Origin: Treponema sp. | GTDB lineage: Bacteria; Spirochaetota; Spirochaetia; Treponematales; Breznakiellaceae | Assembly: GCA_009784975.1 (NCBI GenBank) | Contig: WQXG01000017.1 | Location: forward strand, 1 to 48,025 | Direction: 5' to 3' | Length of the DNA: 48,025 nt | Shown: one piece after another, positions 9,136-26,644 of the stretch | Layout of the letters: the number at the start of each line of letters is the position of its first letter | How positions within the stretch are numbered: position 1 is the first letter of the stretch | Notes under the pieces: generated by a model | The model's database searches: none | Told to the model about the DNA's origin: nothing | What the model saw: the letters and a program-made list of their open reading frames with translations, nothing else | Translations under genes and position numbers: made by a program

Positions 9136-9206
9136 TCCCCGGTTGTGTAATGGTAGCACGGCAGTCTCTGGATCTGCTTGTGGGAGTTCAAATCTTCCCT
9201 GGGGAA
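9136..9206 (+). tRNA. tRNA-Gln (anticodon CUG)
   Basis: A full cloverleaf can be drawn by eye. Acceptor TCCCCGG pairs with CTGGGGA at 9199-9205 with one G-U; D-stem GTGT/GCAC encloses a loop with GG; anticodon stem GCAGT/TCTGC has a U-U at its inner pair; the loop CTCTGGA gives anticodon CUG with U33; the variable loop is four bases; T-stem GGGAG/CTTCC encloses TTCAAAT. The discriminator would be A9206 and CCA is not encoded. A strong promoter lies just upstream. The 3' 21 bases (9186-9206) are repeated exactly at 9403-9423. Confidence 0.88.
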
Positions 9207-9435
9207 TTAATTATTTGATAGAGATTTAACTTATTCAATTTTATGTAACAATTAAGAGGCAAAATAAGCGTGAAGATTTGAACTCCCGTAGTGCCGTGCC
9301 CCGGAAAAGGCGAAAGCCTTTGGAGGGGTTGAGGTGCATGGATGCACCGAAAGGCACGGAGGCGGACCTGGAAGGAGGCAATAGGATGTTGCCGACTGGA
9401 AGGTTCAAATCTTCCCTGGGGAACAAAAATAAGGT
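9207..9435. repeat. tRNA-Gln-derived fragments: 3'-end direct repeat and inverted T-arm copy
   Basis: No convincing protein gene. The last 21 bases of the tRNA (9186-9206) recur exactly at 9403-9423. The T-arm block 9182-9197 recurs inverted at 9272-9287, and just after it, on the inverted strand, comes a short piece resembling the tRNA D-arm region (GCACGGCA). Between these copies sits the folded element at 9294-9359. The arrangement looks like the scar of insertion at, or rearrangement of, a tRNA 3' end, a common attachment site for mobile DNA. Confidence 0.75.
9294..9359. other. Compact folded element, predicted three-way junction
   Basis: A closing stem CCGTGCC (9294-9300) with GGCACGG (9353-9359) encloses two perfect hairpins: AAAGGC-GAAA-GCCTTT (9306-9321, a GNRA tetraloop) and GGTGCA-TGGA-TGCACC (9333-9348). 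It could be a structured RNA or the body of a small repeat element flanked by tRNA fragments. No known RNA family was recognised and strand is not settled. Confidence 0.6.
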
Positions 9436-12298: not shown

Positions 12299-13450
12299 AT
12301 GTCTGACGAAAATAGCATTTTTAATGAAATACTCACTGAACTTCATGATGTAGGTGATAAACTTCTTGATAACAAGGGAGTTATTAAAGATTTTACAAAT
12401 AAAATTATGGAGGATTACCGTAATCTGGCATTAGATAATCTATCACAGGTAGACGAAATAATAAAAGGACACACAAATGCAATAGTCGAACAAGAGCAAA
12501 AACGCCGGCAGGCGGTTAAAGAAACCACAAAAATCGAAGAAGAAAGAAATGAAGTTTTAAAAGAATCAATAGAACTTGAAAGTGAATTAATTGAAACACA
12601 AAAAAAACGTGAAACAGAAACTAAAATATTATCTGAGAGCAGCTTGGACAATTTGAAAAATGTCAGCAAAGCTACTCTTGATGCTTACGAATCTATTTCA
12701 AGATCAATTCTGGATATAAAACGCAGAGAGGTAGAAGAAAAAAAAGAGCTATTAAACAAGGAATTGGAAAATATCATCAGCACGCTAAACAAGGAAAGAG
12801 AAAAAAGATTAATTGAAGCAGGATTTGCAATTGATAACAATGCCCGAAGTCTTGAAGCACAATTAGAGGCAGCCCGTAATATAGGTGATCAAGCCTTAGC
12901 ATACCAATTAGAAAGACAAATACTGGAAAAAGAAATAAACGATGAATTTGACAGATTGGCAGAAGAAGCAAATAAAGAGGCTGCACAGAAAAAAGCAAAG
13001 CTGGAATATGATGTAGCAAAACAGGAACATGCAAATAAAATTATTAACGCTGTAACATCTTCTGCGCTGGCAATAGTACAGGCTTTTAAATCAGCAGGTA
13101 ACCCAATACTTGGTGCAGTTTTTGCAGGATTAACAGGAGCCGCAACTGCTGTTCAGCTTGCAGCAATTAAAAACAATCCGCCTAAAATGCCGTCTTTTTC
13201 TGCTGGCGGAATAGTTCCAGGTTCAAGTTTTACAGGAGATAAAGTAATTGGGAATTTAAATTCAAGGGAAGGTGTATTTACCCTGGAAGACCAAAAATAC
13301 TTTTTTTATCAGATACAGGGGCGTAAATTAGGCGGCGGTGCGACTAACACAACAATAATTGTTCAGCTTGATGGACGCGAAATAGCAAAAAATACAGTAA
13401 ATCTTGTAAACGATGGGTTTTATACCATTAAAGCAAGGGCTATAAGATAA
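12299..13450 (+). CDS. Phage tape-measure-like coiled-coil protein, paralogue of 21245-22591
   Basis: 383 residues. Residues about 60-250 are charged heptad-type coiled coil; about 252-290 is a hydrophobic Ala/Gly-rich segment (SSALAIVQAFKSAGNP onward); the C-terminus has the tape-measure signature FSAGGIVPGSSFTGDKV followed by LNSREGVFTLEDQ. The last 85 residues are closely similar to the tape-measure protein of the tail operon, including the shared ending NDGFYTIKARAIR. It is isolated from the tail genes, on the opposite strand and convergent with the operon's last gene. It could be an alternative tape measure, a remnant of a second tail locus, or a C-terminal module exchanged by recombination. 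Confidence 0.75.
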   Translation: MSDENSIFNEILTELHDVGDKLLDNKGVIKDFTNKIMEDYRNLALDNLSQVDEIIKGHTNAIVEQEQKRRQAVKETTKIEEERNEVLKESIELESELIETQKKRETETKILSESSLDNLKNVSKATLDAYESISRSILDIKRREVEEKKELLNKELENIISTLNKEREKRLIEAGFAIDNNARSLEAQLEAARNIGDQALAYQLERQILEKEINDEFDRLAEEANKEAAQKKAKLEYDVAKQEHANKIINAVTSSALAIVQAFKSAGNPILGAVFAGLTGAATAVQLAAIKNNPPKMPSFSAGGIVPGSSFTGDKVIGNLNSREGVFTLEDQKYFFYQIQGRKLGGGATNTTIIVQLDGREIAKNTVNLVNDGFYTIKARAIR

Positions 13451-13475: not shown

Positions 13476-13988
13476 TCAATTGTTTTTTTCATTAAAGATT
13501 GTATTATTTACATACGTAATATCTGATGAATTTAATTCTGGGTAAAAATAATTACTGATAGTACAATTATTATGAAATTCCCATGTTGTCGAAAACAACG
13601 GTGGAATTCTTGGATTGTTTTTTGATATAAAACTTGGTTCACCATATTTTTCTGTTAATAAATCATTAATTTTATTATACTTTTCAAATAGTTTGCTTTT
13701 ATTTTTAAAACTTATATAAACAATATAAAACCTATCATTATAAAAAAGCAAATCCAACCAAACCTCTTCATCCATAAATATACCGTATGCAGTAATACTA
13801 TTTTCAGTCAAATGCATAATAAATTCTTTTTCTCTTAAAATTGATGCCGCTGTAGATATATTTTCTCCCCATGTTATATCGAAGAAACCGTCAAGATCCA
13901 TTTTTATGGGTTTCGTCTCACATCCAGTTAAAACAATTAAAAAAGCAGCAATTCCTAAAATCAACAAATATTTAATTTTCTTTTTCAT
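13476..13988 (-). CDS. Putative lipoprotein, intact copy of a duplicated gene
   Basis: 170 residues from the ATG at 13988; GAGGAG at 14001-13996 supports this over an ATG 15 bases upstream, which overlaps that site. Signal peptide with basic start, hydrophobic core and lipobox VLTGC (Cys22 or near). The mature domain starts GFFDITWGENISTAAS and has aromatic-rich strands (VWLDLLFYNDRFYIVYISF) and a LTEKYGEPSF motif. The same pattern, a small exported domain reading DITWG and a tyrosine-rich sheet, appears in a second, broken copy at 14605-15102. No function recognised. Together with the 189-residue gene between the copies it forms a cassette at the end of the tail operon; an immunity-like role is speculative. 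Confidence 0.7.
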   Translation of the reverse strand: MKKKIKYLLILGIAAFLIVLTGCETKPIKMDLDGFFDITWGENISTAASILREKEFIMHLTENSITAYGIFMDEEVWLDLLFYNDRFYIVYISFKNKSKLFEKYNKINDLLTEKYGEPSFISKNNPRIPPLFSTTWEFHNNCTISNYFYPELNSSDITYVNNTIFNEKNN

Positions 13989-14005
13989 CGTAAATCTCCT
14001 CATGT

Positions 14006-14575
14006 TTATTTTTCATCATTTTCCCAATTCAATGTTTCTATCAGCCTGTCGGTTAATTTACCAACAAGTGTTCCAAGTGCCCTGCCTATATTCTTTGCTA
14101 TTACATCTTCTCTCAAGCCTCTGGTTAGCTTTCTTGCCGCTACATTGTTTACGCTCCAATTTATTAAAAATGAAGCAGCCCATCCAGATACATCTTGAGT
14201 AAATTTATTCCAATCTCCTGTCTTTATTAAATCGTTGATTATAGGAGTCCAATCTACAACAATTTTAATTCCTTCAATAACAAGACCTATTTTTCTAAAT
14301 TTTTTGGCATAAAAAGTCAATGAAATAACAGGTCCCCAATCACTTATTGTTTTTAACACAATATCGAATTGGTTTTCTGACATATCCTGTCCAATTTGTA
14401 ATTGAGCAAGCTTTTGAAATCCTTTATTAAAAATATTCTGTATTCTTTCACATATATATTCTGCGATTTTTAACTTAATTTCTTCTAGTTTTTTCAGTTG
14501 TTCTCCAAAATCCTCTATATTCTTCCTTTGGAATCTAAGAAATTTTATATATGGATCATCATCTACATCCCGCAT
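14006..14575 (-). CDS. Small helical protein with amphipathic/hydrophobic C-terminal half
   Basis: 189 residues. The N-terminal 80 are charged helices; from about 90 there are alternating hydrophobic helices (WGPVISLTFYAKKFRKIGLV, DVSGWAASFLINWSV) and a Gly-spaced end (NIGRALGTLVGKLTDRLIETL). The spacing of Gly and Ala in a hydrophobic helix resembles glycine-zipper or colicin-type membrane segments, though no family is assigned. It lies between the two copies of a lipoprotein gene and in line with the tail operon; GGGGGAA precedes the ATG. A membrane-active cargo is possible but not shown. Confidence 0.6.
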   Translation of the reverse strand: MRDVDDDPYIKFLRFQRKNIEDFGEQLKKLEEIKLKIAEYICERIQNIFNKGFQKLAQLQIGQDMSENQFDIVLKTISDWGPVISLTFYAKKFRKIGLVIEGIKIVVDWTPIINDLIKTGDWNKFTQDVSGWAASFLINWSVNNVAARKLTRGLREDVIAKNIGRALGTLVGKLTDRLIETLNWENDEK

Positions 14576-14604
14576 TGTTCCCCCAGTTCTCTAATAATGT
14601 TTAA

Positions 14605-15102
14605 TTATTTTTCTTTAAAGATTGTATTATTTTCATATCTAAAAGTTAATGAATTTATTTCTGGAATAAAATAAGTAATGATATTGCAATTGTTATTAAA
14701 TTCCCAGGTTTTCTTTAACCAAAATGAACGATCTCTTGATGTAAAACTCGGTTTACCATATTTTTCTTCTAATAAATCAGTTATTTTATTATACATTTCA
14801 AACAGATTGCTTTTATTTACAAATCTAATAGAAGTAGAATAAAATCTATCATTGCGAAAACGTAAATTTAGCCAAGCCTCTTCATTCATAAATATACCTA
14901 TAGCATCAATACCAAATTCATCCAAATGCATCCTAAATTCTTTCTCTCTTAAAATTGATGCCGCTGTAGATATATTTTCTCCTCATGTTATATCGAAGAA
15001 ACCGTCAAGAGCCATATTTATTGGTTTTGTCTCACATCCAGTTAAAACAATTAAAAAAGCAGCAATTCCTAAAATCAACAAATATTTAATTTTCTTTTTC
15101 AT
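14605..15102 (-). pseudogene. Second lipoprotein copy with in-frame TGA at a conserved Trp
   Basis: Reads from ATG 15102 as a signal peptide and lipobox (LTGC) identical to the copy at 13476-13988, then GFFDIT, then TGA where the intact copy has TGG for Trp (DITWGEN). After the stop the frame continues intact to 14605 and still matches its paralogue (GIFMNEEAWLNLRFRNDRFY). One base change explains the break. Reading TGA as Trp is rejected because TGA terminates other genes here. An internal start at ATG 14931 would give a 108-residue protein without signal peptide. Confidence 0.8.
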
Positions 15103-15125
15103 CGTAAATCTCCTTATGTTTATTT

Positions 15126-16316
15126 TTACACAATCGTCCCCAACTCTTTAAATACCTGCTCTCTTTCCGCGTAATCTTGCTTTGTGTATAACTGCATTCC
15201 CGCAGATTTTAATTTATTTTGGAAATATTCAGAAAAATCAGGGGGAAGATGTTCCAGGGCTTTTGGGTCGTATTTTTCATAAAAATCCAGACTTAAAGAA
15301 TTTGCCAATTTAATCATAGGTTCTGGTATAGATTTTATATGTTTGGATAATTTTTTTACACCGATTTTCTTTACGATATAAGGCGCTTCATAAGTACCCA
15401 AAATATCTATGTCCGGCAAATATGGAATTTTTCTTGTTTTTCCGGTAATAACTTCATCTATAAAAAAGTTGTATTTTGTCTGAAACGAAGGTGTTACATT
15501 AGAAAAATATTCGTCTTTCATTTCATTGTATATTTTGGAATTCAAATTATATAATAATTTATTGGAACCTATCCAGGTCATGCCTATTAATGGGTAAACT
15601 ACCTGAACATCATAAACTTTGCTCATAGAACAATCTAAAACTGCAGAAGATAATCCTAGCATATAATATATAGTTTCTATACTGTCTGTCATTAATCTTC
15701 CGTCTGCGGCTAAACTGATATTATTTTTATCTGCAAATAATAAAGATCCTAAATTATAATAACCGATAGGATAATGCGGAAATAAACATTCTCGTGCATT
15801 TGTAATTACCGAATTAGCGCCTAATTTTTTTGATATTGTGCTATCAACACGAAGAAAATTTCCTTCTTCTTTTTTCTCTGTTTCAAATTCTATTGAATAC
15901 GGCACAAGTTCTGGACACATTATTCTGAGTAAAGTTGAATCTGTCCCTCCGGAAAAATTAAGTACCCAATTAGATCTGGGCTGTCTTTCATTATCTTCTC
16001 TTGCATGCTCTGCATGGACATCATTGGTATTAACTATAGATTTAATTTGTTCCAGAGTATTTTTACCTACATCAAAAGCAAAATAAATGCTGTTATATTT
16101 CTCTAATACCAATGCGCTTACTGTAATTGCAATCATATCATTATTTATAATTACCGGGAAAGCAGATGTTGCAAAAAATTCAAAATTAGATTTAATGCCT
16201 TCTATATTGTCAGCTATTTGAATTGAAAAACCATAATCATTTATATCTGGATTGCTTGCAATAAGACTTGTTTTTTTTAAACTTCTTGTCTTTCTATATT
16301 CATTATTTACATTCAT
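15126..16316 (-). CDS. PP-loop ATP pyrophosphatase-family enzyme in tail operon
   Basis: 396 residues. The PP-loop signature NFSGGTDSTLL occurs at about residues 120-130 (SGGTDS at 122-127), as in asparagine synthetase, QueC-like, GMP synthetase and related enzymes that adenylate a substrate before amidation or similar chemistry. The roughly 110 residues before it do not look like a glutaminase domain, and no CxxC zinc site typical of QueC is seen. The C-terminal 120 residues are helical and unassigned. AAGGAG precedes the ATG and the gap to the tail-fibre gene is only 10 bases, so it is a true member of the tail operon. Likely jobs are modification of a tail or cell-surface component or of a small molecule; substrate unknown. 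Confidence 0.75.
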   Translation of the reverse strand: MNVNNEYRKTRSLKKTSLIASNPDINDYGFSIQIADNIEGIKSNFEFFATSAFPVIINNDMIAITVSALVLEKYNSIYFAFDVGKNTLEQIKSIVNTNDVHAEHAREDNERQPRSNWVLNFSGGTDSTLLRIMCPELVPYSIEFETEKKEEGNFLRVDSTISKKLGANSVITNARECLFPHYPIGYYNLGSLLFADKNNISLAADGRLMTDSIETIYYMLGLSSAVLDCSMSKVYDVQVVYPLIGMTWIGSNKLLYNLNSKIYNEMKDEYFSNVTPSFQTKYNFFIDEVITGKTRKIPYLPDIDILGTYEAPYIVKKIGVKKLSKHIKSIPEPMIKLANSLSLDFYEKYDPKALEHLPPDFSEYFQNKLKSAGMQLYTKQDYAEREQVFKELGTIV

Positions 16317-16326
16317 ATTTTACTCC

Positions 16327-17397
16327 TTATGCATTTGCCCAGTATAAAGACATAACATTATAAACCCTTGTTTGAATTGAACCTGGTATACCTCTAAGAT
16401 TACAGGTTACTGTAAGTTCAGCACATATCTTATAAACCAATATTTTTCCTGATGGAATTGTACCTGTTGGCTGATTACCTGTAATATTTATTGCTACATG
16501 TGTATTCATAAAATCAAAATTTTGAACAAAATTAACTTCAGGATTAATTAAATATTCTTCATCTCTGGTAAACCAGTAATTATCAATAATATTTAATGAA
16601 TAATTCCACTCAATTATACCCATAGAATTTACCGGTACATGAGAAGCGCTAGGGTCAACTGAATTTCCAATATTTATGGTTATATTACCCCAATCTACAG
16701 ATAATGAAGAAGCCTTTGTCGGCGGATATAATAAATGAAAAATTAAACTTTGATAAATATTTTCTGTTGATGCTATCTGGGTTGCGCTTTTATTTGCTTC
16801 TGTTATAATATCATTATTAAAACTTCTGGTATTTGCGCTAAGAGCGCTATCTGCCTGTGTTGAATGCTGTACTGATACAGGCATTGTAGTAGTACCATTG
16901 ACTTCAAGCCTTCGCCGTGAGCTTAATAATCTGTGATCTATATAAGTATTGTCATTTCCTCTCCCATAAAATCTTCTTACTCCCGTAGGATCTTCTATAT
17001 CAATCTGCCCGGCAGCTACTTTACCAAATTCGTCTAATGCAGCAACCCCGTTAGCAACACCTCTCTCAGCCTTTTTTATTGTAATATTTGCCAAATCATC
17101 TGTATATTTTTTTGCGCTTGCAAGCGTGTTTTTATCGCCTTTTATTCTATCCTGCTTTTCTTTGGCATCTATTGCATCCTGAGCAGACTTGGTACGGAAC
17201 GGTGAACCTTCGCCGCTTCTCCAGTCTTCGAATAATTCCCGGATACTCCTTTTCCCATCAGCGGATAATTGGATAATGTCGTCATTTTTAAAACCTTCAG
17301 CATTGTTGATAAAAACAATCTCGCCTCCTTTGGGTATTATTTCCTTTACATTTTCGTAGTTATAAATTTCGTATCTTTGTCCTATAACATTTGCCAT
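16327..17397 (-). CDS. Putative tail fibre protein
   Basis: 356 residues. N-terminal part opens with a compact domain (about 1-75), followed by a helical linker (SAQDAIDAKEKQDRI) and a central fibre-like region with VAALDEFGKVAAGQIDIEDP and repeated TQADSALSANTRSF-type motifs typical of phage fibres. The C-terminus is strand-rich and could be the receptor-binding tip. The start overlaps the stop of the hub gene by 16 bases, with GAGGAGG before the ATG. Position after the hub and before the last gene fits a side or tip fibre. Confidence 0.65.
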   Translation of the reverse strand: MANVIGQRYEIYNYENVKEIIPKGGEIVFINNAEGFKNDDIIQLSADGKRSIRELFEDWRSGEGSPFRTKSAQDAIDAKEKQDRIKGDKNTLASAKKYTDDLANITIKKAERGVANGVAALDEFGKVAAGQIDIEDPTGVRRFYGRGNDNTYIDHRLLSSRRRLEVNGTTTMPVSVQHSTQADSALSANTRSFNNDIITEANKSATQIASTENIYQSLIFHLLYPPTKASSLSVDWGNITINIGNSVDPSASHVPVNSMGIIEWNYSLNIIDNYWFTRDEEYLINPEVNFVQNFDFMNTHVAINITGNQPTGTIPSGKILVYKICAELTVTCNLRGIPGSIQTRVYNVMSLYWANA

Positions 17398-19478
17398 TTT
17401 TTAGCCTCCTCTTTCCACACGTCACTTACCTCTCTTACTCTTACATCAATTGTTGATATGCCTGTCTGAGTGTCAAGATCGACACGCAAGATTTGACATC
17501 GTACTTTATCGGCAAATTTACGGCTGCCAATATTTTCTTTCTCATCGTTTATCAAAGCAATATATTCACTGGTATTGCCCAGTGCTATTGTTTTTTCTCT
17601 TTTTGCATCATCTATTAGACGAATTAAACTGCGTTGTTGTTTGGTATATTCTTTCCCCGGGATACGAAAATCAATATGCCTGATATCATACACGCGAAGA
17701 TTAAACCATTTTTCACCATGTAATTTAATGTTTTTAATAACAGGACGTAATTTTATAAAATCTTCCAGCAATAAATTGCTTTTAAACTCTGCGCCTTCTT
17801 CATCAGCCAGCAAAGTATTGGAAGTCCATTCTTTTTCTACACGGTATTTATCCAGTATATCCATACGTTTTAAAGTGTCGATCCAGTGTCTGCCGGAGTT
17901 TTCCACGTAATTATGACGGTATTCTATATTAGTATGAGTGCCATACAGTTCTGCATTCCAGTCAATTTCAATTTCATTTAAATTAAGTATTTCAAAACAA
18001 TGGATATCAGGATCCTCTTTCCGATTAGGATTATCCAGCCTTGCTGTGTATTTATTTTCATAAACCTGAAACTGAAAACCAATCGCGCAGCCGCTCTGTA
18101 TTTTTTCTATAGCTTCGTATACCGTAACGGGGTTGTCAAAAAGAATTCCCATTTCATAATAATTAAGAGGGGCTAATTCTTTATCAATTTCAAGAATATC
18201 TTCTTGTTCGTAATATCTGTCACCATCTATTGGAACATCTGAATATTCATATAAAATATCTTTTATAATTTCCAGCGGAGTTAATTTATTATTAAATACA
18301 CCATCCATACGGACTTCATTCATTTGATTTGTACGTTCAATCCCCTGTTTTGCAATATCCCATCGTAGAGTTATGATTCCATTATCTAAAAAATTTACTA
18401 TATCTCCCGGCGGAGGTTCATCTTCTATTTCAAGTCCTTCTTTCCATCCATCCCAATCTTCAAAATCAGGATTACCGCTAGCGGTACTGCGGTAAATCGT
18501 TGTCCAGCCATCAACAGATATTGTATCTCCTGTTTCACCGTTAGGGTCTGCAATTTTTCCGCTGGTCATTTTTACCTGAATACGATCCACTCTTGTAATT
18601 TCACTGGAAAACCGAAAACGGTATTGCTCTAAATAACCATCTTCATCTTTAGGCTCATTATCCTTTGCAAATATTTGTTTTCCATGAAGACAAACACCGG
18701 GAACCCCAAAGCAGCTGCCATAGGCTTCCTGCATATCTCTGTCAATAAGGTTATCATCAATATGCGGATATTTTTTATCATCAAATTTTTGGTCAGGTAT
18801 TTTTGCAGAAAGCCGTTCTCTTTTATCTTTAAGATGAAAATCGGCTTTTTCCAGATTTACGGAAATATTCGCGATATAATATTGCGCAACAAGTTTTAAA
18901 ATCAACGGTAAAACATCTTCTTTTGCATCATCACGAACAGCGATAAACAAATTAAATTCATTACCAAAAAGATTTTCTACATCATCAAATTGTCCGTTTG
19001 TGTTATCAATAGAAATAGTAGCGCTGTTAAATTTCATTTTATCGTAAGTAAAAACATCCGCGCTTTGTTCTGCTTTTAATCCGGATAAAAGACCCGGACG
19101 GTACATCCTTTCATTCAGTAAAACAGGACTGCTGTTTGTAAACCCGTACAAAACACCATATCTATGTGAAATATATATATAAGGACTGCTCCAATTTTCA
19201 AACCGCACATATATTATGGAACGTGCATTAACATAACCGCGTTTATTTCCCGGCATTGTACGTAAATCATCCAGAGAATCAAACAAATTATATTCTCTTT
19301 GGTCTATTATAACATTACTGATATTTATTACAGTTCTATTGAATGTGTCTTCCATAAATGGAAGTAACTCACCCACAGCATACAGACAAAAGCACCATAT
19401 TCCAGGCTCTACAGCGGTAAAAGCCGATTTAATAGGCTGAGTATACTCGATTTCTGCAAATGACACTAATTCTTTCAC
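17382..19478 (-). CDS. Putative tail hub / tail-tip protein
   Basis: 698 residues, GTG start with GGAGG about 14 bases upstream. Size, mixed alpha/beta character and position after the tape measure and distal-tail genes fit the hub (Tal/gp27-like) of a siphophage tail. N-terminal part contains structured strands with INISNVIIDQREYNLFDSL and a SATISIDNTNGQFDD motif of the sort seen in phage hub proteins; a C-terminal stretch (LRVYDIRHIDFRIPGKEY, LGNTSEYIALINDE) resembles hub domain IV. No catalytic lysozyme or peptidase motif was recognised. Three-base gap from the preceding gene. Confidence 0.65.
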   Translation of the reverse strand: MKELVSFAEIEYTQPIKSAFTAVEPGIWCFCLYAVGELLPFMEDTFNRTVINISNVIIDQREYNLFDSLDDLRTMPGNKRGYVNARSIIYVRFENWSSPYIYISHRYGVLYGFTNSSPVLLNERMYRPGLLSGLKAEQSADVFTYDKMKFNSATISIDNTNGQFDDVENLFGNEFNLFIAVRDDAKEDVLPLILKLVAQYYIANISVNLEKADFHLKDKRERLSAKIPDQKFDDKKYPHIDDNLIDRDMQEAYGSCFGVPGVCLHGKQIFAKDNEPKDEDGYLEQYRFRFSSEITRVDRIQVKMTSGKIADPNGETGDTISVDGWTTIYRSTASGNPDFEDWDGWKEGLEIEDEPPPGDIVNFLDNGIITLRWDIAKQGIERTNQMNEVRMDGVFNNKLTPLEIIKDILYEYSDVPIDGDRYYEQEDILEIDKELAPLNYYEMGILFDNPVTVYEAIEKIQSGCAIGFQFQVYENKYTARLDNPNRKEDPDIHCFEILNLNEIEIDWNAELYGTHTNIEYRHNYVENSGRHWIDTLKRMDILDKYRVEKEWTSNTLLADEEGAEFKSNLLLEDFIKLRPVIKNIKLHGEKWFNLRVYDIRHIDFRIPGKEYTKQQRSLIRLIDDAKREKTIALGNTSEYIALINDEKENIGSRKFADKVRCQILRVDLDTQTGISTIDVRVREVSDVWKEEAKKWQML

Positions 19479-19481
19479 TTG

Positions 19482-20549
19482 TTACCAAAACCTCCATATT
19501 TTTACATGACCTGATGATATGGGGGGAAAAGGCATGCTAGGACGAGGAATTGTTGAATGCCTGTTAATTTCATATAAACGACTAAAATTAGCATTAATTT
19601 CTAGATATCTTCCTGCTGCTCCGCCTAGTCCTCCAAAGGATTCTACCGCATTATCTCCAGGTTGACCTCTTTCACTATCATTAAAATTAATAGCATAACC
19701 ACCTCCGCTATTAATAAAAAAACCACCAACTCCACGTTTGCCGCCAATCGCTGTTACAATACCTTCAATACGGCTATGTCCTCCTGCTCCTCCTCCTCCT
19801 CCATTTGGATAACGTAAACCTGAAAGAATCCGCCCATCTTGACCTTTTCCGCCATCTTGTCCTAATGAAATTCTTTTAAATCCGCCATTCCAAAAAAAAG
19901 TTCCTGTAATAGCAGTTACTATTTCTCCATCTTGACCTTCTCCGCTAGAAATATTATTATCCTCTGAGTGACCAAAACCACCTTTTCCACCATTACCACC
20001 TTGAATATCATAACGATATGCTCCGGCAGGCAATAAAACTTGCTCATTATGTCTTGGGGTTCCAGTCCAATTTACTTCTGTTAAAAAACCACCAGTTTCT
20101 GGTATTTTTTGTTTTCTGTTAACAAACTCCATCGCATTAAAACTATCCAGAATAACTTTTCCATTATAACGACCATCAACAAAGAAAAATTTCGCAATTA
20201 CCCTGTCATTATTAAAATAAAAACCGCCCTTATCAGCTGACCATGTGCCTGGCTGAGTACTATAAACAAAAGAACATGTATCACCTTCTTCTGATGCCTT
20301 AGCATGAATGTAGTTAACAACATTATTAGTAAGAGAACCTGTCGGTGTTTCATCAGTTTCAATATTGTAAATAATATGATTGATCGCTAAGCAGCTTTCT
20401 TTTTTTATTACAGGTTCTCCATGATCATTAATATCCGCAAGTTCCAACATAATAAACCCGCGCCCTTGTGTCTGCACAAGGGATATAAGAATCCTCCAGT
20501 CATTAAAATTTGCTTCTTTTTCATTTGGTATTTCTACTTTTACACCCAT
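19482..20549 (-). CDS. Glycine-rich tail-tip or receptor-binding-like protein
   Basis: 355 residues. The first 180 residues hold a strand-rich domain ending in NGKVILDSFNAMEFVNRK. From about 200 to 330 the protein is dominated by GG, GGxGG and GQDG motifs (GGNGGKGGFGH, GGGGGAGGHSR, FGGLGGAAGRYLE), recalling polyglycine-II lattices of phage receptor-binding adhesins such as the T4 gp38 class. ATG directly follows the TAG of the preceding gene. Adhesin role is inference from composition and position. Confidence 0.6.
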   Translation of the reverse strand: MGVKVEIPNEKEANFNDWRILISLVQTQGRGFIMLELADINDHGEPVIKKESCLAINHIIYNIETDETPTGSLTNNVVNYIHAKASEEGDTCSFVYSTQPGTWSADKGGFYFNNDRVIAKFFFVDGRYNGKVILDSFNAMEFVNRKQKIPETGGFLTEVNWTGTPRHNEQVLLPAGAYRYDIQGGNGGKGGFGHSEDNNISSGEGQDGEIVTAITGTFFWNGGFKRISLGQDGGKGQDGRILSGLRYPNGGGGGAGGHSRIEGIVTAIGGKRGVGGFFINSGGGYAINFNDSERGQPGDNAVESFGGLGGAAGRYLEINANFSRLYEINRHSTIPRPSMPFPPISSGHVKIWRFW

Positions 20550-21248
20550 CTACCTTGCCTCCTGCCATGACAATGAACTGCTGTAATAAAACCCGTTTTC
20601 GTTACGTTTAGGCAGCGAAACATCGCTGACATTAAGCGTTGAATACATTGGGGGAAACTCCTCCCTTGCATCAGGATACGGGTCTATAATATGCGGTTCA
20701 ATATTTAAAACCGCATCAACATACTCTGTAATGATCTTTTTTTCTTCTGTTGATATCCGCGGGAAACTGGCAGAAAAACTGTTCAAAGTTTTACGTCTGA
20801 CTCCGAAAACCTGACCGCCAAAGGAGCGGGAACTTTCGCTAAAAAGAATTTTTCCTGTTTCAGGTCCTGCTTCAAATCTTGGCAATAAAGTTTTGCATCC
20901 CAAAAACAAATAACCAAGATATAAATTTTCCGTACTTTCTAAAATAAGTTTAAAACCATTAATAAAAAGAATTTCATCAAAATTAAAAATAGTTATTTTA
21001 TCATTTATTAGACCTGAGCATGATCCTTCCTGCGTTGTTAATTCATAACGGAAAGCATTTGTATACCCGATACAAAGTGAATCAACAAGAACAGAATTGA
21101 TACCATAATCCCCGGTTATTTTAATATTATTCTTTGAAAATATCGCTGTAAGTTCAAGCATAGGATCATAAATATTGTACAAACTGGAGCCTACAACAGG
21201 ATCATCTCCTGATAATTCGGCTTGTTCATTTTTATAATAAATATTCAT
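20550..21248 (-). CDS. Putative distal tail protein
   Basis: 232 residues, strand-rich, with SLYNIYDPMLELTAIF near the N-terminus and SFSASFPRISTEEKKIITEY in the C-terminal half. Position immediately after the tape measure and before the tip and hub genes, and length of 200-250 residues, match distal tail (Dit) proteins. The start overlaps the tape-measure stop (ATGA). Sequence similarity to Dit cannot be confirmed by eye. Confidence 0.55.
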   Translation of the reverse strand: MNIYYKNEQAELSGDDPVVGSSLYNIYDPMLELTAIFSKNNIKITGDYGINSVLVDSLCIGYTNAFRYELTTQEGSCSGLINDKITIFNFDEILFINGFKLILESTENLYLGYLFLGCKTLLPRFEAGPETGKILFSESSRSFGGQVFGVRRKTLNSFSASFPRISTEEKKIITEYVDAVLNIEPHIIDPYPDAREEFPPMYSTLNVSDVSLPKRNENGFYYSSSLSWQEAR

Positions 21249-22591
21249 CTGATAGCCCTCGCTTTAATAGTATAAAACCCATCATTAACCAGTTCAACAG
21301 TGCTTTTTGCAATTTCTCTGCTGTCAAGCATAACAACCAAGGTCGCATTCATAGTCCCGCCGCTTAGTTTACGTCCCTGAATTTGGTCAAAGAGATATTC
21401 CTGATCATCAAGGGTAAATACGCCCTCACGGGAGTTTAGCATGGCAGGGACTCTGTCGCCTGAAAAGCTGATACCGGGGACGATGCCGCCGGTGGCAAAA
21501 CTGGGTTTTGAAGACGCTACCTTTCCAATGCCAATCGCACCGGTAAGAGCGGCAAAACCAATTGCTTTAAGGTTCAAAGGCCACGGGCTGCCAGCTAAAG
21601 CCGTAACAATAGATTGAGCCGCTGATGCAATAGCGGCATTTAACTTAATTCTCCATTCTACAATTGCTTGTTCCTCTGCAAGCTCTTTTTCCCTTTCTGC
21701 CATTGCTTCATTAAGCTCTGTTTGTTGTGCAGCATATTCTTCTTCTATCTGGTGTCTTTGTAATGCTCTTTGCGCTTGATAGATTAATACTTCGTCTCCG
21801 GTCCTTTTTGCTTTTTCCAGGTCTTCTTCATACTGCGCTTCGGTCGCTGCTGATACGAAGCCGAGAAAGTGCAGCTGCGCTTGCATTTCTTCATTTATGA
21901 GAGCTATCTTTTCTTGGTGATATTCCTTTAGATTATCTATATCATCTTTTAATCTATCCTTTTTTGCTTTACTGGAACTATTTATCATTGATTCAAAAAT
22001 ATTGCCAAAAAATTTGCCTATTTCAGCAGCATTATCTTTTATTGCATTTTTTAAATCATTTAACACCGGACTGTTTTTTAATCGTTTAAAAACAGAATTA
22101 TTTGCTTCCACAGTTTTTTCTGACCAATCTATAATTGCTTTTCTCATTTCTTCTTTAACTTCTTCATTTGCTTCTTGCCATTCATCCGTTTCTATCACTA
22201 AATTATAAATCAATTTACTTATTTCTTTCTCTTTTTTATCTTTATCAAGTTTATTATTTTTAAGGATTTTCATTATTTCTTTTTCTTTGTTTTTATCTTT
22301 TTCTTCATTTTTATATATATTATCAAAATAATATTTTAATGAATCATTAAGCGCTGAACTCTCTTCTGTTTTTAAATCAAGCATATTTTTAATATCAATA
22401 AATTGACGCAATAATATTTCATCTCGTTCTTTTTGTACAGTCTTTGATTCGGAAGATGTTGATTGTAAATTATTTGGAATTATACAGGCTATTTCTTCAA
22501 GTCTTGCCAATTTGTCAGTTAAATCCTGAACTACAAGCACCATAGCTTTTAAAGCGGCATTTGTTTCTAAATAATTATTAACTACATCCAT
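21245..22591 (-). CDS. Phage tail tape-measure protein
   Basis: 448 residues. Coiled-coil rich up to about 330 with long Lys/Glu heptads, then a hydrophobic Ala/Gly segment (LNAAIASAAQSIVTALAGSP), then the C-terminal signature FATGGIVPGISFSGDRVPAM followed by LNSREGVFTLDDQEYLF. This GGIVPG...GD...LNSxE pattern is typical of tape-measure C-termini. If the length rule of about 1.5 angstrom per residue holds, the tail would be short, roughly 65-70 nm. GGAGG precedes the ATG at 22591. A paralogue with nearly the same last 85 residues lies at 12299-13450. Confidence 0.78.
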   Translation of the reverse strand: MDVVNNYLETNAALKAMVLVVQDLTDKLARLEEIACIIPNNLQSTSSESKTVQKERDEILLRQFIDIKNMLDLKTEESSALNDSLKYYFDNIYKNEEKDKNKEKEIMKILKNNKLDKDKKEKEISKLIYNLVIETDEWQEANEEVKEEMRKAIIDWSEKTVEANNSVFKRLKNSPVLNDLKNAIKDNAAEIGKFFGNIFESMINSSSKAKKDRLKDDIDNLKEYHQEKIALINEEMQAQLHFLGFVSAATEAQYEEDLEKAKRTGDEVLIYQAQRALQRHQIEEEYAAQQTELNEAMAEREKELAEEQAIVEWRIKLNAAIASAAQSIVTALAGSPWPLNLKAIGFAALTGAIGIGKVASSKPSFATGGIVPGISFSGDRVPAMLNSREGVFTLDDQEYLFDQIQGRKLSGGTMNATLVVMLDSREIAKSTVELVNDGFYTIKARAIR

Positions 22592-22626
22592 ATCTATCCT
22601 CCAAAAATAATTGCTCGCTTTTTCTA

Positions 22627-24489
22627 CTATCTAAATTCTGCTCTCCAAAATCTGGTATTATATATATATGTTCCTGCTCTTTTTCCATTTCTATCATAAA
22701 AACGAATAAAATCTTTATACCGCCAATTTGATTCTTCAGAGGAAGAAAGACGAAGACGAACATTGGAACCTATAACTATAATAACATTATCTATACCAAT
22801 ACGAAATGCATCATTTCCTACATAACGAACACTTTCAGAAATGACAATGTTTTTTATCCCTCTGTTATAAAACGCCATATCTCCTATAGATGTAACACTG
22901 TTACCAATAATAATACTATTAATACTGATGTATTTAAAAAAACCGCCAAAAGAATTCCTGCGAATATTTACAATCGGCTCATCCCAAACGGTATCAATAA
23001 CAATAGAACCTCCTTTACCATTATAACTGTATATATGACCTTTTTCCATTGTGATAGCATTGTATAATTCCCATTCATCTCCGGACAAAGCCCTGAGCCG
23101 CAGAATCCCTGTTTGCTCTCCAATTTGTGTTCGTAAAATAGATGCTAATTCTGCTTCGCTGGCATTCGAAGTATGTGAACTATAGTTGTCTATCCTTGCA
23201 ATCCGTATCATTAATTTTTCAGAAATATCATCAATATTAATATTTGCAATGCTCACTGTTTGTTTATTATCATCAAGAAAAAATATCTCTGGTTTTTTGT
23301 CTAGTCCAAATCTCCAGGCACTTCCTGTTGAAAAAGTTTTGCTTCCAATTACTTTATTTTTTTCATTTAACAATTCAATAGTAATATTAAACACATGTCC
23401 CATTGTTTTAAACGGATCCAAGTTGGTAATACTTTGCTGCGGCCAGTTAGCAAGCCCCCAAGCATTTTTTCTGCCTGTAGCTTCCAGGCTAGTGTATATT
23501 GTTTGCAAGGCTCTTTCCACCGAATAAGCCCAAGGATATGAGCAGCGTAAATTAGTATGTACATTAAAAGTTGCAGTTTCATTCTCGTAATCATGCACGC
23601 CTTGTTCAATTTCCGTAGAATAAAACAAAGTATACGCAAGAGCGGTGTCCTTAAATAAATCACTAAAATACTGCTCTGTTTCTGTAAGCCGCTCTATCCA
23701 CTCCCTCCGCCATTGTATATCATTACGGACTGCTGCACCCATATTTTCGTTGGTTATATTAGCGCTTACCGTAGACGACCTATTAACCGCCTCCAGCAAT
23801 CTCGGATCCAAAGCCGCTGCCTGATAATAATAACTTAATGCCGCAACTTCCGTTCCCTGTCTTTGCGCTGTTATCCCCCTTGCAAGCGCTGCCTCTGCTT
23901 GTACTTGTGTAGGGACAGATTTTTTTAGCTCTGCAAGTCCTGCCTCTGTCAGCGTTACTCCTAGCTGTTCAAGCAGCTCGGCAGAAGCCTCCTTTACAGA
24001 AGAAAGGTTTTCCAGCGATTGTGCAGTTGCTGCTCTTGGCGGGAAAGAAGCTTTACGTTCGCCTGTTTCTACATCTGATACAGAAAGTTCCAGCATATAG
24101 GTGTTTGCCGTTCTGTTTACTGTTCCTGTTAAAATAAAACGTGCATTTGTTAATTTGCCAATACTTATAAAATCTTCATCTGAATAGTACCCTGATAAAG
24201 ATTTTGTCTGCTCTGCAAGTATTGTTTCCAAATTTTGCCGGTCAATTATAGTCATTGCGGAGTATTTGTTAAAATCACCCGTAATGGAACCTTGAATTAA
24301 AGAGAGTATCCATTGTTCGTTAGGCGCAAGTCCTCGTCCTGCAGGTTCAAGAACCGCAATAGTTATTCCTTTACCGCCGTCTCCTGTGAACATAGGTTGT
24401 GCAGGCTGGGTATTTTGGGACGGAGTTGAAACGCAGGTGAGGAACGGCAGGAGAAGAGACAATAGAAAAATATAGGCTATCCTTTTCAT
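22627..24489 (-). CDS. CsgG/LpoB-like lipoprotein with BspA-type leucine-rich end, within tail operon
   Basis: 620 residues. Signal peptide with relaxed lipobox (LPFLTC, Cys19). Residues about 40-185 resemble the CsgG/LpoB/FlgO fold: GITIAVLEPAGRGL, TIIDRQNLETILAEQ, ARFILTGTVNR and LSVSDVETGE. About 190-240 is a helical repeat with QRQGTEVAALSYYYQAAALD. The C-terminal 110 residues carry BspA-like leucine-rich repeats (NSVTSIGDMAFYNRGIKNIV, ESVRYVGNDAF). Family members act at the outer membrane as secretion or synthase activators. The gene is embedded between the tail chaperone and the tape measure, with AAGGAGG inside the end of the upstream gene and a one-base gap, so cotranscription is nearly certain. 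Not a normal phage component. Confidence 0.8.
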   Translation of the reverse strand: MKRIAYIFLLSLLLPFLTCVSTPSQNTQPAQPMFTGDGGKGITIAVLEPAGRGLAPNEQWILSLIQGSITGDFNKYSAMTIIDRQNLETILAEQTKSLSGYYSDEDFISIGKLTNARFILTGTVNRTANTYMLELSVSDVETGERKASFPPRAATAQSLENLSSVKEASAELLEQLGVTLTEAGLAELKKSVPTQVQAEAALARGITAQRQGTEVAALSYYYQAAALDPRLLEAVNRSSTVSANITNENMGAAVRNDIQWRREWIERLTETEQYFSDLFKDTALAYTLFYSTEIEQGVHDYENETATFNVHTNLRCSYPWAYSVERALQTIYTSLEATGRKNAWGLANWPQQSITNLDPFKTMGHVFNITIELLNEKNKVIGSKTFSTGSAWRFGLDKKPEIFFLDDNKQTVSIANINIDDISEKLMIRIARIDNYSSHTSNASEAELASILRTQIGEQTGILRLRALSGDEWELYNAITMEKGHIYSYNGKGGSIVIDTVWDEPIVNIRRNSFGGFFKYISINSIIIGNSVTSIGDMAFYNRGIKNIVISESVRYVGNDAFRIGIDNVIIVIGSNVRLRLSSSEESNWRYKDFIRFYDRNGKRAGTYIYNTRFWRAEFR

Positions 24490-24490
24490 A

Positions 24491-25243
24491 CTACCTCCTT
24501 TTCATCCTTGCGTTTTTTTCTATGCTTTTTTTGTTTTTATAGTCTTCAAACAACGCCCATGCGCGTATGTCTATATCACGCATATTGTGATCTGTAAAAA
24601 CTCCGCGAATATGATCATGGGGGTTGTCTTTTCCGTTTTCTGCAAGGATAGCCGCTTCCAGCAATTGGTCATCAGATATTTTCTTTATGTCAGAAATATC
24701 GTTCCCGTGAGCCCATGCTGTAAGAAAACCAAAAGTGTCTTCCGGCAGGATAAAACCCATAAATAATTCCAAATCATCAATTTGTTTTTTTACTTCCAGC
24801 TGCTGCTGTTTGGACCAGCTTTCGCCATGTTGTTTTACATTTTCTATTATTTCTTCCAGTTCTTTCCGTTTGTCTTTAATTACAAAATCATATATTCCTA
24901 CAAGGGCTGCTATTTCATCAAATACCGGTTTATTCATTACCGCGCGGATAAGTTTTTCCTGATAATTACGCAGTTCAATTAACTGCTGGCGCGAGGGCAT
25001 ACTATCAGTTTCCTTGCGGTCTATGTTGCTGAAATTTCCCAGCGCCAGAATTTGCGTGGCATTTAAACAGCGCAGTTCGCACCAAACAGGTGTTCCGTTG
25101 AATGGAACAGGAACTAGATGAAACATTGCCCCCCGGATAATTTCCAGGGGGTTGTAACCCTGCGGCAAAACAGTTTTTCCGCCGTTTTGTGTTTTTTCGC
25201 TGAGTACCTTTTCTATTAAAACGCGCACTTGTTTTTCGTTCAT
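24491..25243 (-). CDS. Putative tail assembly chaperone-like protein
   Basis: 250 residues, mostly helical, no membrane segment or signal. It begins MNEKQVRVLIEKVL and has a central charged helix pair (KRKELEEIIENVKQHGESW). Placement between the tail-tube gene and the tape measure is that of tail assembly chaperones, which are helical and bind the tape measure. The start shares one base with the stop of the upstream gene (TAATG). Function is by position only. Confidence 0.5.
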   Translation of the reverse strand: MNEKQVRVLIEKVLSEKTQNGGKTVLPQGYNPLEIIRGAMFHLVPVPFNGTPVWCELRCLNATQILALGNFSNIDRKETDSMPSRQQLIELRNYQEKLIRAVMNKPVFDEIAALVGIYDFVIKDKRKELEEIIENVKQHGESWSKQQQLEVKKQIDDLELFMGFILPEDTFGFLTAWAHGNDISDIKKISDDQLLEAAILAENGKDNPHDHIRGVFTDHNMRDIDIRAWALFEDYKNKKSIEKNARMKRR

Positions 25244-26244
25244 TAAATATCTTCTATATGCAGGGCATCATATTGATCCCATGTGTACTGCGGAACCAAA
25301 AACGAAGGGCTTGTTTTACCATGTTCGTCTCTGGGTTCTGTTGCTTTAATGTTATAGCTGTAATTTGCCCATGCCTTTGCTTCGGCAGGTACATCGCCCT
25401 CGCTGCCCGTGCAGTTTGGGAAAATACGCCGTTCCATAGCGGTTATCTGATCCATTGTACTTGTTCCATGTCCGTACAACGGAAGGAATATTTCGCATGT
25501 AAATGACGGACTTGCCCTAAATTCCGAATTCGGGATAATATACAAACTTGGGGTATTGGCTGTACCCGGTATCAATTCACCGCCCTGAATCATATTGGTT
25601 AATTCATCATCTTTGAATTTGGTTGCAAGCGCGAAATTTACTCCAAGTATATTTCCGGGCAGTACCATGCGGGTAACTGTACCGCGATTACCTTCAAGAT
25701 CGATCTGCTCGTCTTCCCTTCTGTCGTAGGCAAATCCGTATGAGATATCATGATCATCAAAGTCTTTTACCCAATAACATCCAAACCCTCCGTGTTTACG
25801 GCATTGCCCAAAATCCAGAGCCCCTGCAAGTTCACCTTTAATCTGGATTTCTGTCTTAAAAATGATAATTTCCGGATGCCGAGGTATTTCCACTTTCTCT
25901 ACAACGGATGCTTTAAACAACAACCGCTTTGTTTTAGGATCAACGCCGAATTCAACGCCGGGAAAACCTGAGGCATTCAGCGCCGCTGCTGCATTTTCAG
26001 GTGTAAGATTAGCCGGTGTGTAATTGTTGAAATCAACAGTATCTTTCACCCAGTCTCCATTGTTAAGCTTTACACTCAATTCTGCCTTGTTTTGTGCATC
26101 AAGCACATTAGTAATGTCAATGATGCCTGTAAAACCAAGCGTCCTTTCTGCGGTAGCTGCTGTCCGGTTACTGTCGGGATTGTTCCGTTTGATCCGCCTG
26201 GCAAATGCCGCAAATCGTCCATATACTTCTTTGTTTTCTATCAT
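25243..26244 (-). CDS. Putative major tail (tube) protein
   Basis: 333 residues, strand-rich, no signal peptide. The N-terminal region has a phage-structural flavour: KAELSVKLNNGDW, then TPENAAAALNASGFPGVEFGV followed by LLFKASV, the AALNA...V pattern common to tube and sheath proteins. Later YDRREDEQIDLEGNRG and LPLYGHGTSTMDQ are unassigned. AAGGAG precedes the ATG. It follows the small completion protein and precedes the chaperone, as expected for the tube. A sheath is less likely because no second tube gene follows. Confidence 0.55.
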   Translation of the reverse strand: MIENKEVYGRFAAFARRIKRNNPDSNRTAATAERTLGFTGIIDITNVLDAQNKAELSVKLNNGDWVKDTVDFNNYTPANLTPENAAAALNASGFPGVEFGVDPKTKRLLFKASVVEKVEIPRHPEIIIFKTEIQIKGELAGALDFGQCRKHGGFGCYWVKDFDDHDISYGFAYDRREDEQIDLEGNRGTVTRMVLPGNILGVNFALATKFKDDELTNMIQGGELIPGTANTPSLYIIPNSEFRASPSFTCEIFLPLYGHGTSTMDQITAMERRIFPNCTGSEGDVPAEAKAWANYSYNIKATEPRDEHGKTSPSFLVPQYTWDQYDALHIEDI

Positions 26245-26287
26245 CTGTTTTCTCCTTGTTATTTGTTCCGCTTATAGCGGTATTTCA

Positions 26288-26644
26288 CTAAATTAACCTG
26301 CGGGGATACTCAAATACCCGCTCCATCGAAATAGTCTGATTTTCCTTATCTTCCTCAATCCCGGACCATTCATTCCGTCCGCGTTCCATATACCCGTTTA
26401 TCAGTTTTCTTTTTAAAAGCCGGGTTAGTTCGTTTGTTATATATTGTTCCAGTAATTCAAAAGAGCCGTGTTCCGCAAAGGCTTTTACCCTTATACGTAC
26501 GGTTTCGCTGTCTTTCTCCCTGTCTTTTTCCGATTCTGGCTTAACTACCGCATAAGGCGTTAATGGCGCCTGCATATCATCAGCATATAATACAACATTG
26601 GGGATGGAGCCTTCACGCAGCCGGTTAATTATGTCATTTACCAT
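26288..26644 (-). CDS. Putative tail completion/terminator protein, first gene of the tail operon
   Basis: 118 residues. The layout, an N-terminal helix (VNDIINRLREG), LTPYAVVKPESEK, a strand IRVKAFAEHGSFELLEQYI and a C-terminal basic end, resembles tail completion or terminator proteins that join neck and tube. AGGAGG precedes the ATG. The 43-base gap to the next gene contains a hairpin CCGCT/AGCGG (26268-26280). As the first gene after a promoter with no portal or head genes upstream, it sets the left limit of the tail module. Confidence 0.55.
   Translation of the reverse strand: MVNDIINRLREGSIPNVVLYADDMQAPLTPYAVVKPESEKDREKDSETVRIRVKAFAEHGSFELLEQYITNELTRLLKRKLINGYMERGRNEWSGIEEDKENQTISMERVFEYPRRLI

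Follow-up and report, generated by a model that had tools for sequence, protein, structure and literature searches.

A headless siphophage-type tail operon with an embedded lipoprotein gene and a PP-loop enzyme gene in a Treponema genome

The stretch of DNA analysed here (the window, 48,025 nucleotides) is contig WQXG01000017.1 of Treponema sp. (Breznakiellaceae; assembly GCA_009784975.1), one of the 73 contigs of a 2.60-Mb genome (G000) estimated to be 95% complete, and it carries a compact operon of phage tail genes with no recognised head genes beside it. The ten open reading frames (ORFs) of the operon share the minus strand, and none is interrupted; neighbours lie 0-43 bases apart or overlap by 1, 4 or 16 bases, and the coding share of positions 15126-26644 amounts to 99.2%. 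This order and spacing, the open frames and the SGGTDS motif in the last gene had been put forward in an earlier reading of the sequence (the original prediction), and our analysis agrees on each. At least three genomes from this family of spirochetes carry a headless tail of this kind and, therefore, the locus is not an isolated accident. In order of the operon, its genes are:

26288..26644, minus strand: tail completion/terminator-like protein, 118 amino acids (aa); identity of 38% with the first tail gene in G039, 35% in L014 and 33% in G002
25243..26244, minus strand: tail tube protein, 333 aa, named by its predicted fold
24491..25243, minus strand: protein in the tail assembly chaperone position, 250 aa, named by gene order and homology with head-bearing phages
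22627..24489, minus strand: lipoprotein with a CsgG/LpoB-like N-terminus, a TPR-like middle and a BspA-type LRR end, 620 aa
21245..22591, minus strand: short tape measure protein, 448 aa (phrog_24676, E-value 6e-10)
20550..21248, minus strand: distal tail (Dit-position) protein, 232 aa, named by position; 67% identical to L014 and 55% to G002
19482..20549, minus strand: Gly-rich tip protein, 355 aa; PHROGs give a weak match to a minor tail protein (0.0096), and homologues take the same place
17382..19478, minus strand: tail hub/tip protein, 698 aa, named by position; 51-59% identical to the hubs of G039, L014 and G002
16327..17397, minus strand: tail fibre, 356 aa; PHROG tail families (1.1e-5 and 4.5e-5)
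15126..16316, minus strand: PP-loop (SGGTDS) enzyme, 396 aa, adjoining the fibre; phrog_424, PAPS reductase (0.0022)

The structural genes of a siphophage-type tail are thus present, as judged by the tube fold, the tape measure and a gene order common with tailed phages. The tail nature proposed by the original prediction is borne out by PHROG matches for the tape measure and the fibre, by the fold of the tube and, in the other genes, by their homology to those of head-bearing phages and a common gene order. Structural searches that returned non-tail folds had been named as a reason to abandon that proposal; for the modelled tube, the best folds are siphophage tail tubes of the SPR type (PDB 8xkn and 8ygm), at 17% identity over the aligned residues and with 333 residues here versus 242. 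We take these SPR-type tubes to be kin to those of SPbeta. Since the tube profile finds no match among PDB sequences, its identity rests on this fold and on its relative at L066, which has matches to Ig-type major tail proteins. The hub profile returned a single PDB sequence match, judged to be chance, and the window hub found no tblastn match in 50,697 phage records. For the completion protein, which is also found in G039 and G196, the PHROG labels are neck-type families filed under 'head' (0.0043 and weaker), and the protein in the chaperone position matches no family in Pfam or PHROGs. As regards a contractile injection system (R-tailocin, eCIS or PLTS), no sheath family was recognised with Pfam, PHROGs and NCBIfam among the ten proteins, but most of the ten match no family.

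The original prediction had also remarked on the absence of capsid, portal, terminase, integrase and lysis genes, and this too stands: none was recognised in the ten genes with the same three databases, Pfam detected no head, integrase or lysis family in nine neighbouring ORFs, and 20 head, connector, integrase and lysis-region proteins used as tblastn queries had no match in the window (10 of the 20 matched at least one control locus, partly their own source). When the locus was examined as a possible intact prophage, both flanks of the operon read as chromosomal genes, with signal-transduction genes and a tRNA-Gln to the left and AMP-ligase-like and other metabolic genes to the right (flanking gene names here and at the G002 locus are our own reading of the sequences).

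Relatives of the tail were sought with the hub in 39 same-genus genomes (three matches; of the 39, 11 reach at least 90% completeness with no more than 5% contamination), with the Dit-position protein in 195 family genomes (ten matches) and with the chaperone in the same 195 genomes (eight matches) and in 390 genomes of the order (nine matches). Combined, these searches identify 14 genomes, and four scans of IMG/VR yielded ten distinct contigs with relatives, every one of which carries head genes by homology or PHROGs. Among the 14 genomes, the tail locus is headless in three (G000, G002 and G111) and has head genes in four: G192 and G089, with capsid and portal homologues; G154, with head genes on the chaperone contig and the Dit gene on another; and G161, where only neck genes were read. 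Another (G024) holds hub fragments only, and in six more (G099, G100, G102, G126, G181 and G347) the contigs are too short or insufficiently read to be classified. Had the operon always been part of full prophages elsewhere, the original prediction would have failed by its own standard, but G002 and G111 supply two further headless loci.

The G002 island (G002:C6 121113-132557) lies between lepA and a transporter gene and reads completion protein, tube, chaperone, CsgG-LRR lipoprotein, 440-aa tape measure, Dit, Gly-rich tip, hub, fibre and a 157-aa gene, with 52% identity to the window in the tube, 58% in the chaperone, 53% in the lipoprotein, 55% in Dit and 59% in the hub. Both islands start at the completion gene, and no phage remnant was recognised upstream of either. 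The original prediction had suggested looking for the same operon with both of its extra genes in other treponemes; G002 has the lipoprotein in the same slot and lacks the PP-loop gene. At G111:C28 we find tube, chaperone, a tape measure of 1264 aa, Dit, tip, hub and fibres, preceded by a weakly gp10-like gene (32% over 63 aa) that the tblastn search with 20 proteins did not recover. The tape measures of the window and G002 are short (448 and 440 aa) against 762-1113 aa in the 12 head-bearing relatives with complete ORFs; with 1264 aa in G111, the short form is a feature of two of the three headless loci only. Head-bearing G039 (IMGVR_UViG_3300027864_000006), G196 (IMGVR_UViG_3300002449_000009) and G192 share the gene order up to the fibre and reach 67% identity in Dit, but they carry capsid genes, tape measures of 762-1067 aa and no CsgG-type lipoprotein (in G192, at the tail), and an endolysin was recognised in G196.

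Phylogenetic reconstruction gives the two ends of the tail different histories. In a combined tube and chaperone tree (569 columns, 13 rows, of which three are headless and ten head-bearing), the window, G002 and G111 stand apart from all head-bearing rows with 96/96 support, and the chaperone on its own gives the same split (99/95). In the hub tree the window and G002 form a pair (91/90) nested with head-bearing G039 and L014 (100/100), and in the Dit tree the window falls beside L014 (88/96). The trees therefore indicate that the tube end has its own lineage and that tips have been exchanged with head-bearing phages.

The original prediction had argued for selection on the tail alone. The sequences were too diverged for the ratio of non-synonymous to synonymous change (dN/dS) to be computed, and selection was judged from differences per codon position alone. 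In all nine genes common with G002 the third position differs most (0.57-0.67 of codons versus 0.20-0.52 for the first two), the excess being weakest in the Gly-rich tip and the fibre. As far as codon positions can tell, this shows protein-level constraint somewhere in the history of the genes, not necessarily after head loss. That the constraint outlasted the head is suggested by the lack of any recognised head, connector, lysis or integration remnant in either island, by the short tape measures and by a broken gene copy beside the operon. Hence, the open frames of the original argument and the third-position excess could both date from the time of a full phage, and the operon is patchily distributed; that the tail by itself has been under selection is plausible without being proven.

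The lipoprotein between chaperone and tape measure had been described as CsgG-like. A lipobox is evident by eye, but the similarity to CsgG (0.003; 17.3 bits versus 20.8) falls under the Pfam cut-off, whereas LRR_5 exceeds it (1.1e-8), and the protein also matches TPR and LRR chains in the PDB. Outside the two tail operons this family gives 13 strong matches; nine of these paralogues were examined, at eight loci in five genomes, and all nine stand outside any tail operon. We therefore rejected the lipoprotein as a marker of tail operons, and it would seem to be a host family that the tail operon has captured. At one of these paralogue loci (L076) a neighbouring ORF weakly resembles a fibre (31% over 84 aa). 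In a tree of 11 relatives, built on their first 480-520 residues, the window and G002 copies (53% identical) are sisters (94/94), which fits a capture before the two operons parted. The CsgG-type lipoprotein occupies the slot in the window and G002 and in no head-bearing locus read. Nonetheless, a lipoprotein at this point of a tail operon is less of an oddity than the original prediction supposed, because three of the ten head-bearing IMG/VR contigs carry other lipoproteins in the same slot (lipobox by eye, no Pfam match), which makes it a general cargo position. These are small and each different:

L062 10849-11787: small lipoprotein
L064 8557-9102: small lipoprotein
L065 10708-11196: small lipoprotein

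All three are candidates for exclusion lipoproteins.

The PP-loop enzyme had been said to have no place in a standard tail, and here the comparative evidence points the other way. Its only relative in another of the 195 family genomes, in two pieces of 36% and 45% identity in G012, comes right after a fibre-like gene (35% identical over 85 aa to the fibre of L014), starting 19 bases inside its end, and the pair (G012:C6, L087 8418-13405) sits between portal and prohead protease in a prophage whose genes include terminase, portal, protease, capsid and a serine recombinase. With instances in the window and in G012, fibre and PP-loop gene look like a phage cassette. The G012 PP-loop frame is interrupted, and the gap between portal and prohead protease is an unusual place for a fibre. 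Sequence searches with the enzyme found nothing in viral contigs, phage records or the PDB, and its predicted fold (three rows; mean pLDDT, the predicted local distance difference test, 37.8) was too poor to search and went unused. The economical guess is that its substrate is the fibre or the receptor of the fibre. In a similar way, the G039 phage encodes two enzymes between tip and hub, a TAGT-type glycosyltransferase and a radical-SAM enzyme, and a second radical-SAM enzyme beyond them. L007 8381-10001 and 18549-19226 hold a TET-associated glycosyltransferase and two radical-SAM genes in a spirochete phage tail region.

Heads might also be encoded at another locus of the same genome. G002 possesses a head-only element on C28 (G002:C28, L091 2121-9649) with genes for an integrase, a helix-turn-helix protein, a TerS-like protein, terminase, portal, a LuxR-type regulator, protease and an HK97 capsid, in which no tail or lysis gene was seen. 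Like elements (L124, L125, L126 and L127) occur twice each in two single-contig genomes; their capsid and terminase share 74-79% identity with those of G002, a TerS-like gene is present in four of the five copies, and the element resembles capsid-forming satellites. Conceivably, the window operon might act as a tail donor, its tails joining capsids made by such islands. PF04860 portals, however, are over the cut-off in 36 of the 195 family genomes, so that one co-occurrence in three headless genomes is unremarkable; none is found in G000, and the two genomes with two elements each are not among the matches to the window tail in the Dit and chaperone searches. The link is therefore unlikely for the window; we rejected the head-only element as tail partner as a main reading, and consider tail donation very improbable.

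Slightly more remote still is a device resembling a gene transfer agent with its head genes elsewhere, which would agree with the lack of linked head genes and with the retention of the completion protein. The PF03237 terminase profile matched G002:C28 and nothing in G000 or G111. The G039-type head families were first named by gene order, and their profiles match a solved portal strongly (9gb5, 9.7e-29) and a solved major capsid weakly (9gay, 0.0021), neither protein having a tblastn match in phage records or an informative PHROG match. The capsid profile matched G039, G196 and G192, which is its own build set, and nothing in G000, G002 or G111. In the 95%-complete G000 these searches thus found no G039-type major capsid protein, no G039-type large terminase by an insensitive query, and no PF03237 or PF04860 match, other head families not having been searched for.

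The tail genes, the absence of recognisable linked head genes, the three headless loci, the tube fold and the enzyme found twice beside a fibre form the basis for our best reading, which places the operon, at about an even chance, as a siphophage-derived tail island working like an F-type tailocin without a linked lysis cassette. The tube and chaperone tree, the sister lipoproteins of the window and G002, the head genes of all ten IMG/VR contigs and the third-position excess also speak for it. As in F-pyocins and Listeria F-type bacteriocins, siphophage-type tail genes stand here in phage order without recognised head, packaging or replication genes. In this comparison of genes alone, the window differs in that no linked lysis cassette was recognised, and in its 448-aa tape measure, CsgG-TPR-LRR lipoprotein, PP-loop enzyme and spirochete host; because of the missing cassette we do not file it as a member of the class. 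The presumably co-transcribed tube, chaperone, short tape measure, tip, hub and fibre genes would provide for a headless flexible tail, about 65-70 nm long if its 448 tape-measure residues scale to length as in phage lambda. Once released, such tails may kill target cells selected by the fibre, probably close relatives, with the fibre or its receptor as the presumed target of the PP-loop enzyme.

The surface lipoprotein, presumably co-transcribed as well, would shield the producer from its own tails, much as superinfection-exclusion lipoproteins work for phages, and immunity is the role that we prefer for it, in view of its position and of the lipobox seen by eye. Compared by description, Ltp of phage TP-J34 is likewise a phage-borne surface lipoprotein, and its superinfection exclusion is reported to target the tape measure protein, the product of the gene next to the lipoprotein gene here. 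According to PMC3952083, ltp belongs to the lysogeny module, whereas the gene in the window lies inside the tail operon. The same lipoprotein could alternatively be an exit or anchor in the outer membrane, or an immunity partner, for a non-contractile siphotail of the window/G002 lineage, owned by the host and independent of lysis, as opposed to a bacteriocin released by lysis; this we regard as unlikely.

The most serious competitor to the tailocin-like reading, possible but clearly less probable in our judgment, is a decapitated prophage in which head, lysis and integration genes have been deleted and the tail genes are not yet broken. The observations that follow weigh against our preferred reading, speak for this one, or do both. 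Close tails occur in head-bearing phages, and the tip genes are as close to these phages as to G002 (Dit 67% to L014 versus 55% to G002). Distribution is patchy, with the operon in two of the 39 same-genus genomes, at different sites, plus hub fragments as all that G024 has; the lipoprotein gene copy next to the operon is broken, and the gp10-like gene of G111 is a possible neck gene. G111 also has the long tape measure and no CsgG-type lipoprotein at its tail, and the tube-only tree leaves the three headless rows unresolved beside a head-bearing clade, although holding them together is not rejected (p-AU 0.418, in a test chosen once the tree was known). Patchiness, different sites, tip exchange, the G024 fragments and the G111 tape measure argue likewise against constraint after head loss. 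None of the three headless loci has a recognised lysis gene (the genome elsewhere was not searched for a cassette), which counts against a tailocin because, according to PMC12090994, tailocins are headless, repeatedly of independent origin and released by lysis. Finally, the three headless genomes are incomplete (95% for G000, 83 and 87% for the others), and a G039-lineage terminase query found nothing in G000, G002 or G111, but it matched its own source alone and is therefore insensitive, so that this miss says little. Against decapitation, all tail ORFs of the window and G002 are open despite 29-60% protein identity, no upstream remnant is recognised, and both islands have in common a short tape measure and a captured lipoprotein, neither of which occurs in any head-bearing locus read. 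We place the tailocin-like reading ahead.

Headless phage tails are known weapons in other bacteria and, if the device is real, gut spirochetes would gain an instrument of competition or delivery. A limited open-access literature search found no title on a phage-tail-like particle of a spirochete. The missing lysis genes and the embedded lipoprotein raise the question of how such tails are released and how the producer protects itself.

Three further features lie to the left of the operon:

12299..13450, plus strand: orphan protein of 383 aa resembling a second short tape measure; 42% identical over 275 aa to that of L014
13476..14003, minus strand: small lipoprotein, 175 aa; signal and lipobox by eye, no Pfam match
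14605..15102, minus strand: broken second copy of the 175-aa lipoprotein gene (DNA repeats D1 and D2, 81-84% identical; upper end set by eye)

The first of these, absent from the original prediction, may be left over from a second tail or be a spare part for one. A 108-aa ORF at 14605-14931 is the shortened copy of the lipoprotein gene. PADLOC gave weak hits to PDLC03001 gop (0.0065, on a 189-aa protein) and to JukA (9.7e-6, residues 195-287 of the second tape-measure-like protein), neither accepted as a defence gene. GC content drops to 22-32% at 10-17 kb, against 28-47% (mostly above 35%) elsewhere in the window, and scans for promoters (74 versus 62.4 expected, standard deviation 8.0) and terminators (16 versus 9.0, standard deviation 3.0) rose little over chance. 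The tRNA-Gln was considered as an attachment site; its 21-base 3' end (9186-9206) has no further copy with up to three mismatches in the window besides an exact repeat 217 bases downstream (9403-9423), which looks like a small insertion or attachment scar.

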